Source: Deltaproteobacteria bacterium (lineage in GTDB: Bacteria > Desulfobacterota > Deferrimicrobia > Deferrimicrobiales > Deferrimicrobiaceae). Taken from it: 33,466 nt of DNA. This document shows positions 4,909-28,750 of this stretch, piece by piece. The stretch covers positions 1 through 33,466 of the forward strand of contig JANXQJ010000008.1 in assembly GCA_025356865.1 (NCBI GenBank), read 5' to 3'. How positions within the stretch are numbered: position 1 is the first letter of the stretch; each line of letters begins with the position of its first letter. The notes beneath the pieces are model-generated. The model saw nothing but the letters and a program-made list of their open reading frames with translations, was not told the DNA's origin and searched no databases. Both the position numbers and the translations under genes were made by a program.

Positions 4909-6917
4909 AACGGCCGTTCGACCCGATCCGCGGATTGCCGATCCTGCTGGCGCTGGCCGCCGTCGCGCTGGGCCTTTACGCCCGTCTCACGGGATTCGGC
5001 CGCTGGCCCGTCTCCTACGACGAGTTCTTCATCGGGCAGTCGGTCCGCAACATCCTCGAACACGGGGTTCCGAGGATCGGCGAAAACGGATTGTATGTCC
5101 GGGGATTGCTGGTGCAGTACGTGGCGGCCGCCGCCCGCCTCGCCGGGATGGGCGAGGAATCCGCGATCCGGCTTCTTCCGCTCCTGTGCAACCTCTCCGC
5201 GATTCCGGCGCTCTGGTTCCTTGGACGGCGCCTCGGCGGCCGTGCCGCCGCATCGGTTGCGGTCGTTCTCTTCGCCCTCTCGGCCTGGGAGATCGAGTTC
5301 TCCCGCTTCGGCCGGATGTATGCGCCGATCCAGGCGATCACCCTCTGGCTTGCGATCCTGATGAACGGCGTCATTTCCGACGGGCGGGAAGATTGGCGGA
5401 AATGGATCGCGGCGCTGGTCGCCCTGTCGATCCCCGTTCACGAAAGTTCGGTCTTTCTCGCCCTCGCCCTCTTCCTTCCCGACCTGGCCGCCTGGCGCCG
5501 CCCGAAGGTTTCCCACCTGGTGACGGCGGTTGCGTTGCTCGTGGCGGCCGTCTACTGGAACGGAAACGATTTCCGGAAATTCTCGCCCGCGAAGTCGCCC
5601 GAGGGCGTGGCCCGCGTCGCGAAGACCGCCAAAAACGCCGGGGGGAAACTGTTGCTCCCCGCTCCCCTGATGCCGTTGATGAAGGATCGCCCATGGGGGA
5701 TGGTGCCGGTGGGCGCCGCGTCCGCTGGCGCGGGCTTCCTGCTGTGGCGCGCGTTCCGGAAGCGGGACGGCGTGAAGGCGGGTGCCGGGCGCGCGGTGCT
5801 GGCGGGCAGCTGGATTCTCGGGTTCGCCCAGGCCTTCGCAGCGCTTCCGATTTTCTGGGGAATGGCGGCGATGAACGGATTCACCGGTCCCCGGGGTCCT
5901 GCCCGTCGCCGCATCGTGTTGTCGGCGCTCGGGATCGCGGGACTGTTTTTCGCCGCGTGGGGCCTCTACGCAGCCGGAATCGTGACGGATCCCGGCGTGA
6001 AACTGACGGCGTCCCCCGGGACGGTGCTGGCCCGGTTGCTCTTCGGCTGGCCCGATATCGCGGACCGGATCTTCCCGATCTGGTGGACGGTGCTTCCCCG
6101 GTTCCTGATGGCGACGCTCCTCGTCACGGCGGTCGCCCTGCCGCTCTGGCGGAAGGGGCCTCCGGACCGGCTTCGCGGGCTACAGGCGGTCGGGACGCTT
6201 TTTCTTTTCCTGCTCGCCCTCTCCGCGGTCGTCCGGACCCCCTATGTCAGCACCCGCTACACCTTTCCCCTGGTGCCGTTCCTCTTCCTTTTCGTAGCCT
6301 GCGGGCTGGCGGCCTTCGCCCGCGCGCTGGCGACCGCCCCGCGCCGAAGGGCGCTGATCCTGGTCGTGATGACGGTGGCCTTCCTGGGGCTCTCCGAGGA
6401 CACCCGGTTCAACCGGCTGTTCCATCCCGACGCGCCGCGCACGAACTTCCGGATGGACGACACGCTGGCCGAAGTCCACCACTACATTCCCCGCTTCGAT
6501 TTCCGTTCGCCGGCCGTCTTCGTCGACGCGAATCGCCGCCCGGGAGACCGGGTGGTGCTGACACTGCTGCAGCCCGCGTTCTACCTCTCCCGGCCTGCGG
6601 ACGGCTTCTACATCCAGCAAGGCAGTTCCGAGTTCTTCAACCATCACGACGCGAAGACGGGCCGGGAACGGTGGACCGGGATTCCGGTGCTTCCGAACCT
6701 GGATGCGATGAAGGGCGTGCTGAATGCGCCGGGGACCACGTGGCTGATCGCGGGGAGCGGCGATTTCCCGTTCGACCGGGACCTGCACCGGTCGCTGGCG
6801 CAGGCTTTCGGCGCGGGCATCGCCTTCAAGGGCGTGGACCGGCAGGTAGTGGTCTACAAGGTGGCGGGTGGGGATGCGCCCCCGCCGGGTGAGAGTCCCG
6901 GGACGGTTCGGCAGTAG
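4905..6917 (+). CDS. GT39/ArnT-like integral membrane glycosyltransferase
   Basis: This is a 670-residue polytopic inner-membrane protein of the PMT/ArnT superfamily (GT-C fold). Such enzymes take a sugar from polyprenyl phosphate and attach it to lipid A, another glycan or a protein on the periplasmic side. The first membrane segment is followed by SYDEFFIG near residue 38. An acidic pair at that position in the first periplasmic loop is the family's catalytic signature. Many hydrophobic segments follow, with a soluble C-terminal portion. The GTG start at 4905 overlaps the previous stop (GTGA); the longer open frame upstream is a shadow of the preceding gene. It ends 16 bases before the convergent ABC transporter. 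As the last gene of the operon it is the likely final transfer step. Confidence 0.88.
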   Translation: MKRPFDPIRGLPILLALAAVALGLYARLTGFGRWPVSYDEFFIGQSVRNILEHGVPRIGENGLYVRGLLVQYVAAAARLAGMGEESAIRLLPLLCNLSAIPALWFLGRRLGGRAAASVAVVLFALSAWEIEFSRFGRMYAPIQAITLWLAILMNGVISDGREDWRKWIAALVALSIPVHESSVFLALALFLPDLAAWRRPKVSHLVTAVALLVAAVYWNGNDFRKFSPAKSPEGVARVAKTAKNAGGKLLLPAPLMPLMKDRPWGMVPVGAASAGAGFLLWRAFRKRDGVKAGAGRAVLAGSWILGFAQAFAALPIFWGMAAMNGFTGPRGPARRRIVLSALGIAGLFFAAWGLYAAGIVTDPGVKLTASPGTVLARLLFGWPDIADRIFPIWWTVLPRFLMATLLVTAVALPLWRKGPPDRLRGLQAVGTLFLFLLALSAVVRTPYVSTRYTFPLVPFLFLFVACGLAAFARALATAPRRRALILVVMTVAFLGLSEDTRFNRLFHPDAPRTNFRMDDTLAEVHHYIPRFDFRSPAVFVDANRRPGDRVVLTLLQPAFYLSRPADGFYIQQGSSEFFNHHDAKTGRERWTGIPVLPNLDAMKGVLNAPGTTWLIAGSGDFPFDRDLHRSLAQAFGAGIAFKGVDRQVVVYKVAGGDAPPPGESPGTVRQ

Positions 6918-6933: not shown

Positions 6934-8613
<1,680 letters not shown>

Positions 8614-21383: not shown

Positions 21384-21725
<342 letters not shown>

Positions 21726-23435
21726 TTATTCCTCCTTGCCGAAGGAGCTGGAAGCGCGGAACGGCGTGGTGCGGACGTTGAAGTCCGGGTAGGCCGCGAC
21801 GGCCACTTCGTGCTGATCGAGTCCGTCCATCTCGACTTCCGGACTGACGCGCATGCCGATGATCAGGTCGATGAGTTTGAACACGATGTAGGAGGCCGCT
21901 GCGACGAACACGATGTTGGTCACGGTGCCGATGATCTGCGCCGTGAACTGCGAGGCGTCCCCGTAAAAGAGCCCCTTGACCGTCCCTGCGACGCCGTTGA
22001 AGCCGTCGCCGTACTTGCCGTCGGCGAAGAGGCCCAGTGAGAGGACACCCCAGATGCCGTTGGCGCCGTGGACCGCGACCGCGCCGACCGGATCGTCGAC
22101 CTTGAGCGTCCGTTCGACGAAGAAGACCGCTACGCAGCAGAGGACGCCGGCGATGAGGCCGATGAGGACCGAGGCGGGCGCGGTGACGAAGGCGCACGGG
22201 GCGGTGATTGCGACGAGGCCCGCGAGCAGGCCGTTGCAGGTCATGGAAACGTCGGGCTTGCCGAAGCGAAGCCACATGTAGAGCATCGCCGAGAGGCCGC
22301 CCGCCGCGCTGGCGAGCATCGTGTTGACGACGACGACCGCGATCCGCAGGTCGGTGCCGGCGAGGGTGGAACCCGGGTTGAAGCCGAACCAGCCGAACGC
22401 CAGGATCAGCGTGCCGACGACCGCCATCGGGATGTGGTGGCCCGGGATCGGGTTGGGACTGCCGTCCTTGTTGAACTTGCCGAGCCGCGGCCCGAGCACC
22501 TTGGCGCCGATCAGGGCGCAGACGCCGCCGGTCATGTGGACGACCGAGGAGCCGGCGAAGTCGACATGGCCGTGGCCGAGGGCGAAGTTCTTGCCGAGCT
22601 GGGAGAGCCAGCCGCCGCCCCAGACCCAGTTGGCGTAGAGCGGGTAGATGAAGCCGGCCATGAAGACGCCGTAGACCACGAAGGCGCTGAACTTCCAGCG
22701 TTCGGCCATCGCGCCGGTCGGGATCGTGGCGGCCGTGTCCATGAAGACCATGTTGAAGAAGAAGAGCGTGAAGACGGCCACGTCGTAGACGCCGTTGCCG
22801 AGGAAGAAGCCCTTGGTGCCGAACAGGCCGAAATCCTTGCCGAACAGGTGGATGACGAATTCGTTGTTGAGCACCGCCCCGCCGCCGATGGCCGCATTGC
22901 CGCCGCTGCCGCCCATGTGGATCGCGAAGCCGATCGCCCAGTAGGCGAGGATGCCGATGATGTAGATGACGACGTTCATCGCCATGGTGTGGCTCGCGTT
23001 CTTTGCGCGGGTGAAGCCGGTCTCGACCATCGCGAAGCCGACCTGCATGAACATGACGAGGAAGCCGCAGACCAGCGCCCATACCATGTTGATCGAAATC
23101 TTGTTGTGGCCGACGACGTCGGCGAGCTTGACCGCCAGCGGCTCGGCCTTGCCCATCAGCTTGACGTCGTTGTCGGTCGGGGCGTTGGCCGCCGCGCCGA
23201 GCGTGTCGGAGATCGTGCCGGCGTTCGCGCCGGTCGGGTCGGGTTTGGGCGCTTCGGCCGCGGGCGCTGCCGCAGGTGCCGCAGCGGCCGCAATGTCCGC
23301 GACAGGTGCCGCGTTGTCGGCCGGTTTTGCCGCCGCATTGTCTTCCGCAAGCGCCGTGGCCAGGGAGCCGGCGACCAGCATCAGCATCGCCAGGCACAGG
23401 AACAGGGCTGCCGTCTTTCTCGTTGTGCGTTTCAT
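21726..23435 (-). CDS. amtB: Ammonium transporter with long Ala/Pro-rich N-terminal extension
   Basis: This 569-residue Amt/Rh-family ammonium channel of the inner membrane has the conserved pore histidines H300 (VDFAGSSVVH) and H456 (AVAVHGANGIWG). It also shows the family signatures FFFNMVFMDTAATI and FGWFGFNPGS. It is longer than a typical AmtB. After a signal peptide there is a stretch of about 70 residues rich in Ala, Pro and Asp before the first channel helix, probably in the periplasm. A Gly-rich loop plus GKDFGLFGTKG also lies near residues 175-215. The ATG at 23435 has GAGGAG seven bases upstream. It sits between an outer-membrane protein gene and glnK, and the three are probably one operon. 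Confidence 0.95.
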   Translation of the reverse strand: MKRTTRKTAALFLCLAMLMLVAGSLATALAEDNAAAKPADNAAPVADIAAAAAPAAAPAAEAPKPDPTGANAGTISDTLGAAANAPTDNDVKLMGKAEPLAVKLADVVGHNKISINMVWALVCGFLVMFMQVGFAMVETGFTRAKNASHTMAMNVVIYIIGILAYWAIGFAIHMGGSGGNAAIGGGAVLNNEFVIHLFGKDFGLFGTKGFFLGNGVYDVAVFTLFFFNMVFMDTAATIPTGAMAERWKFSAFVVYGVFMAGFIYPLYANWVWGGGWLSQLGKNFALGHGHVDFAGSSVVHMTGGVCALIGAKVLGPRLGKFNKDGSPNPIPGHHIPMAVVGTLILAFGWFGFNPGSTLAGTDLRIAVVVVNTMLASAAGGLSAMLYMWLRFGKPDVSMTCNGLLAGLVAITAPCAFVTAPASVLIGLIAGVLCCVAVFFVERTLKVDDPVGAVAVHGANGIWGVLSLGLFADGKYGDGFNGVAGTVKGLFYGDASQFTAQIIGTVTNIVFVAAASYIVFKLIDLIIGMRVSPEVEMDGLDQHEVAVAAYPDFNVRTTPFRASSSFGKEE

Positions 23436-23499: not shown

Positions 23500-24351
23500 T
23501 TACGGGAAGTTGATGTCGACCTGCACGGTCGCCGTGTTCTGGCCCGCACGGTTCTTGTCGTTGTAGACGTCGTAGCCGACGATCACGCTGACGTTCTTGG
23601 CGAAGGCCCAGGAGGCGCCGAAGTTGAGCGCGCCGTAGGCGTTCTTCCCGCCCTGGTAGTCGACCGCCAACCAGAGCTTGTCGGAGATTTCGGTCATCGT
23701 GCGGTCCCAGGAGAGCATCACGCCGGAATCGTCGCCTTCGTTGCCGAACTGGTCATAGACGCCGGCCACCGAGGCTTTCTTGTTGAGCCCGTAGTAGCCG
23801 GCCGAGATGCGGCCGACGATCGGGAGGGTCTTCGCGGCCAGGCCGTAGACGATGTTCGCGTTGGTCCCGGTCTTCGTGTAGGCGCCGCCGTCCGTTTCTC
23901 CGCTCTTCGTGCCGAAGTTGTAACCGCCGACCGCGATCGCGGGGGAGAACTTGAAGAGCGCGTCTTCCGGGATGCCGATCTTGGCATGGCCGTAGAGCGG
24001 GGACTTGTCGAGCCCGACCACGGTGTTGGCGCCGCCGTTCATCAGGTCGAAGCCCACTTCCATCTGAACCTTCTCGAAGGGGAGGACGCCGACGGTGGGC
24101 CCGATCATGTAGAGCGCGGGAATATTGCCGCCCTCGACGACGCCGAACCAGCCCGCGTTTTCAGCCGGCTCTTTCTTTGTGCGGACGTAGCTGTCGAAGT
24201 TGAGGTGGACCGTCTTGAACGCCTGGATATCGGTCGACGGGATCCAGACCTGCGTCGACGGCGTGGCGAGGGCGGAACCTGCGACCATGCAAAGCACCGC
24301 GTTGGCGGCCAGGGAGATCGTCAGTTTCTTGAGCAGCGGGCGGATCGACAT
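23500..24351 (-). CDS. Outer-membrane beta-barrel protein linked to amtB-glnK
   Basis: This 283-residue exported protein has a signal peptide ending near GSALA. The mature chain alternates hydrophobic and polar residues with Gly/Asn/Asp-rich turns, and ends in TVQVDINFP with a C-terminal aromatic strand. These are marks of an outer-membrane barrel of about 12 strands or fewer. I do not recognise a specific porin family. The ATG at 24351 has AGGAGG five bases upstream. A sigma54 promoter lies just upstream, and amtB begins 64 bases after its stop, so it is probably the lead gene of a nitrogen-controlled operon. A role in letting ammonium or another nitrogen compound cross the outer membrane is inference from this context. 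Confidence 0.78.
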   Translation of the reverse strand: MSIRPLLKKLTISLAANAVLCMVAGSALATPSTQVWIPSTDIQAFKTVHLNFDSYVRTKKEPAENAGWFGVVEGGNIPALYMIGPTVGVLPFEKVQMEVGFDLMNGGANTVVGLDKSPLYGHAKIGIPEDALFKFSPAIAVGGYNFGTKSGETDGGAYTKTGTNANIVYGLAAKTLPIVGRISAGYYGLNKKASVAGVYDQFGNEGDDSGVMLSWDRTMTEISDKLWLAVDYQGGKNAYGALNFGASWAFAKNVSVIVGYDVYNDKNRAGQNTATVQVDINFP

Positions 24352-24387
24352 AAATGCCTCCTGGAAAAGTTGTTGCCCGGATGTAAC

Positions 24388-24402
24388 GCAGGAGGCGTGC
24401 CG
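24388..24402 (-). promoter_or_regulatory. Sigma54 (RpoN) promoter for the outer-membrane protein-amtB-glnK operon
   Basis: Minus-strand CGGCACGCCTCCTGC (24402-24388) matches TGGCACG-N4-TTGC. It has GGCACG at -24, TGC at -12, and exactly ten bases between the diagnostic GG (24401-24400) and GC (24389-24388). A start about 12 bases downstream would give a 5' leader of roughly 25 bases containing the AGGAGG site. amtB-glnK operons are known sigma54 targets. Confidence 0.75.
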
Positions 24403-24513
24403 AATCGAGCATTCCGGACGGGGTTATCAGACAACAACTTGTTAATATTCATTAATTTGCGGAGTATCTGTCCGCGCGCCGCCTCGGGCCAAAATAAAAC
24501 ATGACGCCATAAT

Positions 24514-24529
24514 TGTCTTGAAGACGACA
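24514..24529. promoter_or_regulatory. NifA-type upstream activator sequence (TGT-N10-ACA)
   Basis: TGTCTTGAAGACGACA fits TGT-N10-ACA exactly and contains the internal dyad GTCTT-G-AAGAC. It lies about 112 bases upstream of the sigma54 promoter at 24402, within the usual activator-site distance. A chance match in about 300 bases is possible. The 24352-24650 region holds no other gene I can support. Confidence 0.45.
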
Positions 24530-24657
24530 TTTTGGTCGGCGTTGGCGTTCCGGCAGTAAAAAGGATTGAAGTATTTTCGGGAATTGGCGGATAAGTAATA
24601 CAGGACGTCGAACCACACTGAACCGAAGAGGGGAGCGGAGCTGCCCATGCCCGGACG

Positions 24658-24882
24658 GTGCTGACCGATATCGTGATGCCGCGGATGAACGGCTTCCAGA
24701 TGGTCGACCGGCTCGAGGCGATGCGGCCGGGCATCAAGGTCGTGCTGATGTCGGGTTACTCGCCGGAGTCGGTCGCGCAGCAGGGGCCGATGGGGAGGAT
24801 GCGCGACTACCTGCAGAAGCCGTTTCGCCCCGATGCGCTCGTCCGCAAGATCCGCGAGGCGGTCGCTTCGACGCCGTCGTGA
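24658..24882 (+). pseudogene. C-terminal fragment of a response-regulator receiver domain
   Basis: These 74 codons encode the second half of a CheY-like receiver domain. LTDIVMPRMNGFQMVDRL carries the phospho-acceptor Asp (TDIVMP), KVVLMSGYSPESV carries the switch residue region, and the conserved Lys lies in LQKPFRPDALVRKIRE. The first half, with beta-1 and its acidic pair, is missing. Upstream codons before 24655 show no receiver resemblance and reach a stop at 24619-24621. The VLMSGYS style is typical of receiver domains at the end of hybrid sensor kinases, so this is probably the 3' remnant of such a kinase. It converges on the NifA-like gene, whose stop is seven bases away. Confidence 0.7.
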
Positions 24883-24889
24883 GGCGGAC

Positions 24890-26509
24890 CTATTCGGCCG
24901 GGTTTTTCCAGGGCGAGACGAGCGCGTACTTCTTCATCTTGTAACCCACCTGGCGGGGCGTCCAGCCGAGCAGTTTCGCGGCGCGGGCGATCACCCAACC
25001 GGCGTTTTCGAGCGCGCGGTGCAGTTCATCCCTTTCCATGTTCTTCAGGTACTCGGCCCGCGAGGCGGCCGGTTGCCCATTCGAGGGGGGCGCCGCTGCG
25101 GGCTGCCCGGGTCCGGCCGTACTTTCGGGCGGCGGGGCGATGGTGGTCAGGATGGTTCCCGCGCGATAGGTGCGCACCCCGCGCGGCAGGTCGTGCCCCT
25201 GGACGATATGCGACTTGGCCATGACCACGGTGCGTTCGACGAGATTCTCCAGCTCGCGGACGTTGCCCGGCCACCGGTATTCGATCAGCAGTTCGACCGC
25301 GTCGGCCGAAAAGGAGATGCTTTTCCCGTGTTCCCGGTTGTACCGTTCGACGAAATGATCGAGCAGCGGCACGATGTCCTCGCGGCGGTCGCGCAGCGGC
25401 GGCAGGAAGAGCGGGATGACGTTGAGCCGGTAGTAGAGGTCTTCCCGGAACTTTCCGTCCTCGACCATCTTCTCGAGATCGGCGTTCGTGGCTGCGATGA
25501 TGCGGACGTCGACGGCGATGGTGCGGTTCTCCCCCAGCCGCTCGAACTTCCGGTCCTGCAGCACGCGCAACAGCTTGACCTGCGTGGAAAGCGGGATGTC
25601 GCCGATCTCGTCGAGAAAGATGGTGCCGCCCCCGGCTTCCTCGAACCGTCCCTTGCGTTCCTCGACCGCGCCCGTGAAGGCGCCCTTCTTGTGGCCGAAC
25701 AGCTCGGATTCGAGCAGCGTTTCGGGGAGCGCCGCGCAGTTGACGGTGATCATCGGGCGCTCGGCCCGCTTCCCCGCCAGGTGGATCGCCCGCGCGATCA
25801 TCTCCTTTCCGGTGCCGCTCTCGCCCCGCAGCAGCACCGTGGCGCGCGAGGCGGCTACGCTGACCACCGACGCGAACACTTCCTGCATCCGCTTGCTCTG
25901 CCCGATGATGTTCTCGATGCGGTAGGTCTTCCGGATGGTCTTCTCGAACTCCTGCCGCTGCCGCTGGAACTCTTCCTGCAGCCGTTCGAAAGCGGCGTTC
26001 AGCTTCAGCGCCTGCCCGATCAGGCAGCCGACGACGACCAGCGTCCGGGTGTCGCTTTCGAGCGCCTGGGTGCCGAGCCGGCCGATGCGGGTGGCGGTGA
26101 GGATGCCCAGCACCTCGTTGCCGATCTTGATGGGGACCGACAGGTAGGCGACCGGTTCCTCCGAATCGGCGTGAATGCCGGTCTTGTCGAGGAACATCGG
26201 CTCCTTGCGAACGTCGGGGATGACGATGGGGCTGCCGGTCTTCATCGTCTTGCCGACGATCCCCTCGCCCCAGACATAGTGCGCGCGCTCGGCTTCCTCG
26301 CGGGAATAGCCGACGCTCGCCACCATCCCGATCTCGCGCGTCGTGACGTCGGGCATGAGGAGGGCGGCCCGGTCGAAGCCGAGGAGACTCTGGAGGGTGC
26401 GCAGCGTGGTTCCGAGGGCACGGTCCAGGTTCTGGGCGGATGTAAGCAGCTTGCCGACCTCGTGGATCGCGGCGAGATCGGCGCTGGCGGGAAACCGGTA
26501 ATCGTTCAC
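24890..26509 (-). CDS. NifA-like sigma54-dependent transcriptional activator (GAF-AAA-HTH)
   Basis: This 539-residue bacterial enhancer-binding protein has a GAF sensory domain (about 10-165) and an AAA+ domain with Walker A GESGTGKE (229-236), sigma54-contacting GAFTGA (276-281) and Walker B GGGTIFLDE. A Pro/Ala linker follows, then a C-terminal helix-turn-helix, ARAAKLLGWTPRQVGYKMKKY. The TPRQVGYK recognition helix is typical of NifA. The linker before the helix-turn-helix has no cysteines, so it lacks the Cys motif of the oxygen-sensitive NifA type. The GTG at 26509 fits the domain boundary; there is no ribosome site, and a CATAAT hexamer lies six bases upstream. No nif genes are in view. 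The nearest plausible target is the amtB operon with its TGT-N10-ACA site. Confidence 0.87.
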   Translation of the reverse strand: MNDYRFPASADLAAIHEVGKLLTSAQNLDRALGTTLRTLQSLLGFDRAALLMPDVTTREIGMVASVGYSREEAERAHYVWGEGIVGKTMKTGSPIVIPDVRKEPMFLDKTGIHADSEEPVAYLSVPIKIGNEVLGILTATRIGRLGTQALESDTRTLVVVGCLIGQALKLNAAFERLQEEFQRQRQEFEKTIRKTYRIENIIGQSKRMQEVFASVVSVAASRATVLLRGESGTGKEMIARAIHLAGKRAERPMITVNCAALPETLLESELFGHKKGAFTGAVEERKGRFEEAGGGTIFLDEIGDIPLSTQVKLLRVLQDRKFERLGENRTIAVDVRIIAATNADLEKMVEDGKFREDLYYRLNVIPLFLPPLRDRREDIVPLLDHFVERYNREHGKSISFSADAVELLIEYRWPGNVRELENLVERTVVMAKSHIVQGHDLPRGVRTYRAGTILTTIAPPPESTAGPGQPAAAPPSNGQPAASRAEYLKNMERDELHRALENAGWVIARAAKLLGWTPRQVGYKMKKYALVSPWKNPAE

Positions 26510-27640: not shown

Positions 27641-28750
27641 ATGGCCAAGACTTCGAAATTTCTCACGGGGGCGCGCATCCTGCCGCCGCCGATCGCGGCA
27701 GGCGCAAAGGCCGCCGACCTGATCGACACCTTTTTCCTGGCCTACAACGCGGGACGGCTTCGGGAAGGCGCGCGGCTGCTGACGCAGAAGATGCTCCTGC
27801 CCGACGTGACCGTGGGCGTGTCGCTCACCGGGGCGCTGACGCCCGCCGGGCTCGGCGCTTCGTGCATCGTGCCGCTGATCAAGGCGGGCGCGTTCGACTG
27901 GATCATCTCGACCGGCGCCAACCTGTATCACGACGCCCATTTCGCGCTGGGCATGCGGCTTCATGCCGGGTCGCCGTTCACCGACGACCGGGTGCTCCGC
28001 GACGAGGGGGTCGTCCGGATCTACGACATCCTCTTCTCCTACGACGTGCTGCTCGACACCGACACCTTCTTCCGCAAGGTGCTCGAGGCCGACGAATTCC
28101 AGACCGAGATGGGCACCGCCGAGTTCCACTACCGGATGGGCCGCTACCTCGCCGAACGCGAGAAGGCGCTGGGGCTGGGCGAGGTCAGCGTGCTGGCCGC
28201 CGCCTACCGGTACGGCGTGCCGGTCTACACCTCGTCGCCGGGCGATTCCTCCATCGGCATGAACGTCGCCGCGATGGCGCTCAAGGGGAAGGGCGTCAAG
28301 ATCGACGTCTCCCGCGACGTCAACGAAACAGCCGCGATCGTCTACGCGGCGAAAAAGAAGGGGAAGAGCGCCGTCTTCATCCTCGGCGGCGGGTCGCCGA
28401 AGAACTTCATGCTCCAGACCGAGCCACAGATTCAAGAGGTGCTCGGCCTCGACGAGAAGGGGCACGACTACTTCCTGCAGGTCACCGACGCCCGTCCCGA
28501 CACGGGGGGCCTCTCGGGCGCCACCCCGTCCGAGGCGGTCTCGTGGGGGAAGGTCGATCCCGACAACCTGCCCGACGCGGTCGTCTGCTACCTCGACACG
28601 ACCATCGCGCTTCCCCTGCTCACGGCCTACGTCCTCACGCGCTCGAAGAAGCGCCCCCTGAAGCGGCTCTACGACCAGCGCGAGACGCTCCTGGCGTCGC
28701 TGACGAAGGCGTATCTCGACCGGGAAAAGAAGCGCGCGAAGAAGAAGTGA
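27641..28750 (+). CDS. Deoxyhypusine synthase-like protein (DHS family)
   Basis: This 369-residue enzyme belongs to the NAD-dependent deoxyhypusine synthase family, which transfers the aminobutyl group of spermidine. In archaea and eukaryotes the acceptor is a lysine of aIF5A/eIF5A. Bacteria lack that protein, and some bacterial members make homospermidine or a related polyamine. Conserved features are [37 protein letters not shown] and the active-site motif EAVSWGK. K304 is the position of the lysine that forms the enzyme-imine intermediate. Length is normal. The ATG at 27641 follows GGAGG by ten bases, rather far but acceptable. Polyamine product and acceptor cannot be decided from sequence. 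Confidence 0.88.

Follow-up and report, generated by a model that had tools for sequence, protein, structure and literature searches.

Organization of the amt locus

The window, that is, the whole stretch of DNA analyzed here (33,466 nucleotides), carries on its minus strand a gene encoding a NifA-type activator, a region of about 540 bp with control sites, and genes encoding a putative outer-membrane barrel protein, AmtB, and GlnK, in the following order:

26509..24890, minus strand: NifA paralog, putative activator of the operon; GAF, sigma54-AAA and Fis-type helix-turn-helix (HTH) domains; GTG start at 26509
24529..24514, minus strand: putative NifA-type upstream activator sequence (UAS), TGT-N10-ACA = TGTCGTCTTCAAGACA
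24401..24388, minus strand: putative sigma54 (-24/-12) promoter, GGCACG-N5-TGC; GG-N10-GC = GGCACGCCTCCTGC
24351..23500, minus strand: barrel gene; ORF of 283 aa, signal peptide, 12 predicted strands
23435..21726, minus strand: amtB; PF00909 389 bits, TIGR00836 392 bits (above cut-off)
21722..21384, minus strand: glnK (P-II); PF00543 117 bits

The Amt and P-II genes are adjacent and co-oriented, as in an amtB-glnK operon, and 64 bases (23499-23436) separate the barrel stop codon from the amtB ATG (23435); in relatives, the barrel-amt gap measures 26-132 bp. The first-pass annotation had described an exported barrel protein encoded 64 bases before amtB and heading the amtB-glnK operon; its coordinates proved right, and the gene arrangement supports the operon assignment. 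This gap was also checked for an internal promoter or terminator, and its operon strand showed neither a terminator-like nor a sigma70-like site.

In AmtB, a signal peptide and a long N-terminal extension rich in Ala and Pro precede the Amt domain, whose first residue is 118. Between the nifA and barrel genes, a receiver-domain-like remnant (VLTDIVMPRMNGFQMVDRLE...) was spotted by eye on the plus strand (about 24650-24880); because a full hybrid histidine kinase occupies the nifA-barrel gap of genome G002 (L042 6345-8840, minus strand), the remnant looks like a decayed copy. A divergent homospermidine biosynthesis gene (27641-28750, plus strand; PRK00770, 565 bits) adjoins the nifA paralog in many relatives.

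Control sites upstream of the barrel gene

The sigma54 site lies 36 nt before the barrel ATG, with an AGGAGG ribosome site present, and TGT-N10-ACA is located 112 bases above the GG of the sigma54 site. Fourteen sites with an equal sigma54 score occur in the window, so by itself this element carries little weight. TGT-N10-ACA occurs once in the whole 33-kb window, and such a UAS is expected in 2% of dinucleotide-shuffled 300-bp upstream regions. Both elements were compared in 16 upstream regions from the window's family (window included), 14 of which belong to this barrel and two to a different barrel. The sigma54 site (score 9-11 of 12) is present in 16/16 regions, and in all of them the UAS starts 123-130 bp before it, being exact in 13 and carrying one mismatch, in the same place, in three. 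Earlier descriptions of a correctly placed GG-N10-GC promoter and of TGT-N10-ACA about 112 bases further up thus held: the predicted promoter is conserved throughout the set, and the spacing is fixed in relatives. Judged by sequence, the -24/-12 element with its upstream TGT-N10-ACA has the composition of a sigma54-dependent NifA-type promoter.

A scan of 24 whole genomes from the family for TGTC-N9-ACA located 100-130 bp from GGCAYR-N5-TGC gave 11 matches, compared with one for the reversed-pattern control. Ten of the 11 fall in the slot after an amt-linked NifA gene, including eight before the barrel, one before a replacement barrel (G013, see below), and one at a contig end (G023), and the remaining match precedes another amt gene (G022). 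With a spacing of 68-98 bp, four matches were found in the same genomes (control, one), three of them before a second amt operon, including that of contig C17 in the window's genome. In this genome, the pair at either spacing occurs only twice, at the barrel operon and at the tandem amt pair on C17. The latter locus (L147) has a pair of amt genes in tandem but no barrel, and its own TGT-N10-ACA and sigma54 site are 91 bp apart. The distribution of the pair suggests that the NifA paralog may also control the tandem amt operon.

The adjacent NifA paralog

The upstream protein (26509-24890), which the first-pass annotation did not name, has the GAF-AAA-HTH layout of NifA and scores 558.6 bits against TIGR01817 (cut-off 528.85). 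The window's genome also contains nifH and, beside it, a second NifA, both on another contig. In a tree, 18 amt-linked and 6 nif-linked NifAs formed separate groups (100/100). No nifH over the cut-off was detected in 13 of the 18 genomes with an amt-linked NifA, some genomes being incomplete, and the amt-linked NifA is therefore not nif-specific in the sense of being found with nif genes. The window copy thus resembles NifA in domain layout, score, and the TGT-N10-ACA plus sigma54 architecture, whereas it differs from nif-linked NifAs in its separate clade, its linkage to amt, and its occurrence in genomes without nifH.

Membership of the operon in a nif regulon was rejected as the main reading, since the majority of relatives sharing this layout have no nifH and the amt-linked NifAs form a clade of their own. 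No exact TGT-N10-ACA turned up on the nifH contig. Two genes lie near nifH in the window's genome (L056, contig C80): a distant Amt-like gene scoring 147 bits at 5035-6018, and that of the nif-linked NifA at 7025-8599, where the NifA match passes through one TGA.

The DNA-binding helix of the amt-linked NifAs retains a segment, TPRQxxYKxKK, similar to that of the nif-linked copies, which is consistent with the same TGT-N10-ACA target. The protein is probably a NifA paralog devoted to ammonium uptake and a candidate activator acting at 24514-24529. The previous reading of this site can be refined accordingly in one respect: TGT-N10-ACA is likely a NifA-type UAS, with the adjacent NifA paralog as its activator. 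Whatever the role of the barrel, an NtrC-type or other sigma54 activator could control the operon while the NifA paralog regulates something else. Such control would match the NtrC requirement of the Herbaspirillum seropedicae nlmA-glnK-amtB operon (PMC3023670) and the observation that the sigma54 sites of the barrel in other families mostly lack an accompanying TGT-N10-ACA. We regard it as quite unlikely for the operon studied here, given the fixed position of the UAS in the window's family, the largely amt-specific occurrence of the UAS-sigma54 pair genome-wide, the adjacency of the nifA paralog, and an HTH that keeps the segment resembling the nif-NifA clade.

Predicted structure of the barrel protein

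The barrel protein begins with a signal peptide (approximately residues 1-29, ending ...GSALA and followed by TPSTQ). Its mature N-terminus, TPSTQxWxPSTD, is strictly conserved and precedes the first strand, and its C-terminus, TVQVDINFP, is of the barrel type. AlphaFold modeling based on 66 sequences predicted 12 strands (pLDDT 87.6); together, the signal peptide, the even number of amphipathic strands, and the hydrophobic C-terminal residue predict an outer-membrane beta-barrel. The protein matched no Pfam, NCBIfam or PDB-sequence family, a plasmid search returned no relative, and searches of the literature yielded no publication on this barrel next to amtB. Among solved folds, Foldseek ranked the COG4313 channel (4rl8) and FapF (5o68) best by TM-score, at approximately 0.5; with this score only and no PDB sequence match, homology to either is not assigned. 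Two models also matched OmpF with good E-values but low TM-scores, and membership in the OmpF fold family is not claimed.

The side facing the lumen was assigned by residue alternation rather than from coordinates, with three strands ambiguous. The predicted lumen residues H49, D53, Y55, E98, G100, D102, K124, R181, D216, D231, Q277, D279, and N281 are 91-100% conserved, and D53, E98, D102, K124, R181, D231, Q277, and D279 are invariant. For 65 of the 66 members, the lumen has a predicted net charge of -3 to -5. Read from these predictions, an acidic lumen would suit a cation.

Two variants were observed among the relatives. In G006 (L050 364-1100), the barrel gene is split across two frames, by a frameshift or an assembly error. 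Locus L051 (7939-8865) encodes a barrel of the divergent TPSTTYW subtype; ahead of its amt gene, the gap still codes for the C-terminus of the other subtype (NTYTVQLDINFP), a trace of barrel replacement.

Linkage of barrel and amt genes across phyla

Using the barrel alignment alone as the query against 84,980 genomes, 283 relatives were confirmed, and the loci of the best 80 were examined, with record titles naming Deltaproteobacteria, Geobacter, Geomonas, Elusimicrobia, Nitrospirae, Bacteroidales/Bacteroidetes, and one Bacteriovorax. Among these best 80 of 283, amt or glnK lies at most 600 bp from the barrel in 63 of 75 resolvable loci (12 without such a neighbor; five more cut by contig ends), a figure that is not a count of independent events, since the records are related. 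Separate gene orders are independent, and they include barrel-amt-glnK, barrel-glnK-amt (Geobacter), amt-barrel (Elusimicrobia), and nifA-glnK-amt-barrel (Bacteroidales). Relatives in the window's family share the order nifA-barrel-amt-glnK, and the linkage recurred at 10 of the 13 loci inspected in further genomes of the phylum.

The comparative check proposed in the first-pass annotation, namely whether the barrel is always beside amtB, gave a negative answer, as some relatives show it with glnK alone or by itself. It stands alone before lutA-like genes in L038 and with glnK only in L046 and L055, and AmtB is therefore not an obligatory neighbor. Geomonas members without an adjoining amt nonetheless have strong sigma54 sites. 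The other amt genes of the window's genome have no barrel, and only 24 of 296 sampled genomes of the phylum (~8%) carry one, so passage of ammonium across outer membranes does not require it. One member (L114 5167-9231), near a contig end, lies beside kdpA-like and response-regulator genes instead of amt.

Replacement by a Gcw_chp/TorF barrel

In G013 (L138), the position flanked by the same nifA and amt genes is occupied by a Gcw_chp/TorF barrel, and in G007 (L141) a similar Gcw_chp gene follows nifA, after which the contig ends. Both are preceded by the same sigma54 site and UAS as the window-type barrel. Like the window protein, the putative Gcw_chp/TorF porins (PF09694, TIGR02001) are exported, barrel-type, of similar size, and located beside amt or glnK in many relatives. 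Across the phylum, the 1.5-kb flank contained amt or glnK in 16 of 30 Gcw_chp loci. In contrast, the two families have no sequence-profile similarity (hhalign probability 0.4%): the aligned Gcw_chp proteins matched PF09694 in 16/16 and TIGR02001 in 14/16 cases, whereas neither model matched the window protein or 20 members of alignment A1 up to E=1. Of all the observations, this replacement most strongly suggests that the slot calls for an outer-membrane barrel in general rather than for one particular family. The functional tie between barrel and AmtB proposed earlier is upheld across phyla and gene orders and by an unrelated barrel replacing the original in situ.

These comparisons bear on two other roles for the protein. 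Instead of forming a channel, the barrel might have a structural role in the envelope or make contact with AmtB, such as by anchoring an AmtB-GlnK assembly at the outer membrane or by acting as a signaling barrel. Such a role would account for the strictly conserved TPSTQxWxPSTD ahead of the first strand and for the long Ala/Pro-rich extension of AmtB. We consider this very unlikely: sister genera carry in the same slot AmtB subtypes with 42-44% and ~72% identity to the window's AmtB, and both this exchange of subtypes (~43% and 72%) beside similar barrels and the occupation of the slot by a non-homologous barrel fit permeability better than specific contact.

The main rival is a wider nitrogen-solute porin: a non-specific small-solute porin, induced when nitrogen is short, that would admit amino acids, polyamines or urea or raise permeability in general, and that shares the amt operon by coincidence. 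In its favor are orphan members that have sigma54 sites but lie away from amt, and two genomes that keep the barrel with glnK but without amt; in enterobacteria, moreover, general porins let ammonium pass freely. The association with amt, which spans phyla and a variety of gene orders, substitution by another barrel just before amt, and charged predicted lumen residues that are nearly invariant, unlike those of a variable porin lumen, make this rival unlikely in our estimate, although it is the one to be taken most seriously.

Proposed function

We propose, with a probability of roughly 0.6, that the barrel is an outer-membrane channel of nitrogen starvation that would pass ammonium to AmtB. 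The proposal draws on gene order, the control-site pair, the NifA-paralog clade, cross-phylum linkage, and replacement by a second barrel, all read from sequence, together with the predicted 12-strand barrel and acidic lumen. Under nitrogen shortage, the adjacent NifA paralog would bind TGT-N10-ACA and drive the sigma54 promoter, and one transcript would yield barrel, AmtB, and GlnK. The barrel, presumably made in response to falling ammonium, would admit ammonium, and possibly other small cationic nitrogen solutes, into the periplasm, from which AmtB would take up ammonium; GlnK would then gate AmtB in its usual way.

A broader idea, which we advance tentatively and at less than even odds, is that a dedicated outer-membrane ammonium channel exists in several phyla, was invented at least twice (the window family and the amt-linked Gcw_chp), and was joined by a NifA paralog recruited as an activator of ammonium uptake in bacteria without nitrogenase. 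Ammonium entry is usually treated at the inner membrane, the outer membrane being assumed leaky. An uncatalogued barrel that is tied to Amt across phyla and replaceable suggests that passage through the outer membrane can be limiting, a problem repeatedly addressed by evolution. The reading offers a testable function for an unnamed barrel family and for many functionally uncharacterized Gcw_chp proteins. It also draws attention to a NifA-type regulator seemingly serving ammonium uptake rather than nitrogenase.

Comparison with known systems

The published parallel to the barrel-amtB-glnK arrangement is the H. seropedicae nlmA-glnK-amtB operon, in which NlmA appears in membranes under nitrogen limitation, an amtB fusion is 21 times more active under limitation, and NlmA is placed by the authors most probably in the periplasm (PMC3023670). 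The likeness is one of arrangement; in contrast to the window, that operon is NtrC-activated, has the order glnK-amtB, and includes a protein of most probably periplasmic location.

Among solved structures, the best-fitting folds, those of the COG4313 channel and FapF (TM ~0.5), are likewise 12-strand barrels, but they share only 9-14% identity with the barrel, give no sequence-level match, and have other substrates. In OprP-type phosphate starvation systems, a starvation-induced outer-membrane channel works with the high-affinity inner-membrane transporter Pst. The resemblance is in role only, a starvation channel paired with an inner-membrane transporter, as the barrel is unrelated to OprP, and the present case would involve a cationic solute and sigma54 control. 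Thus, the overall arrangement has published precedent, whereas the barrel family is new and the likely activator differs from that of H. seropedicae.
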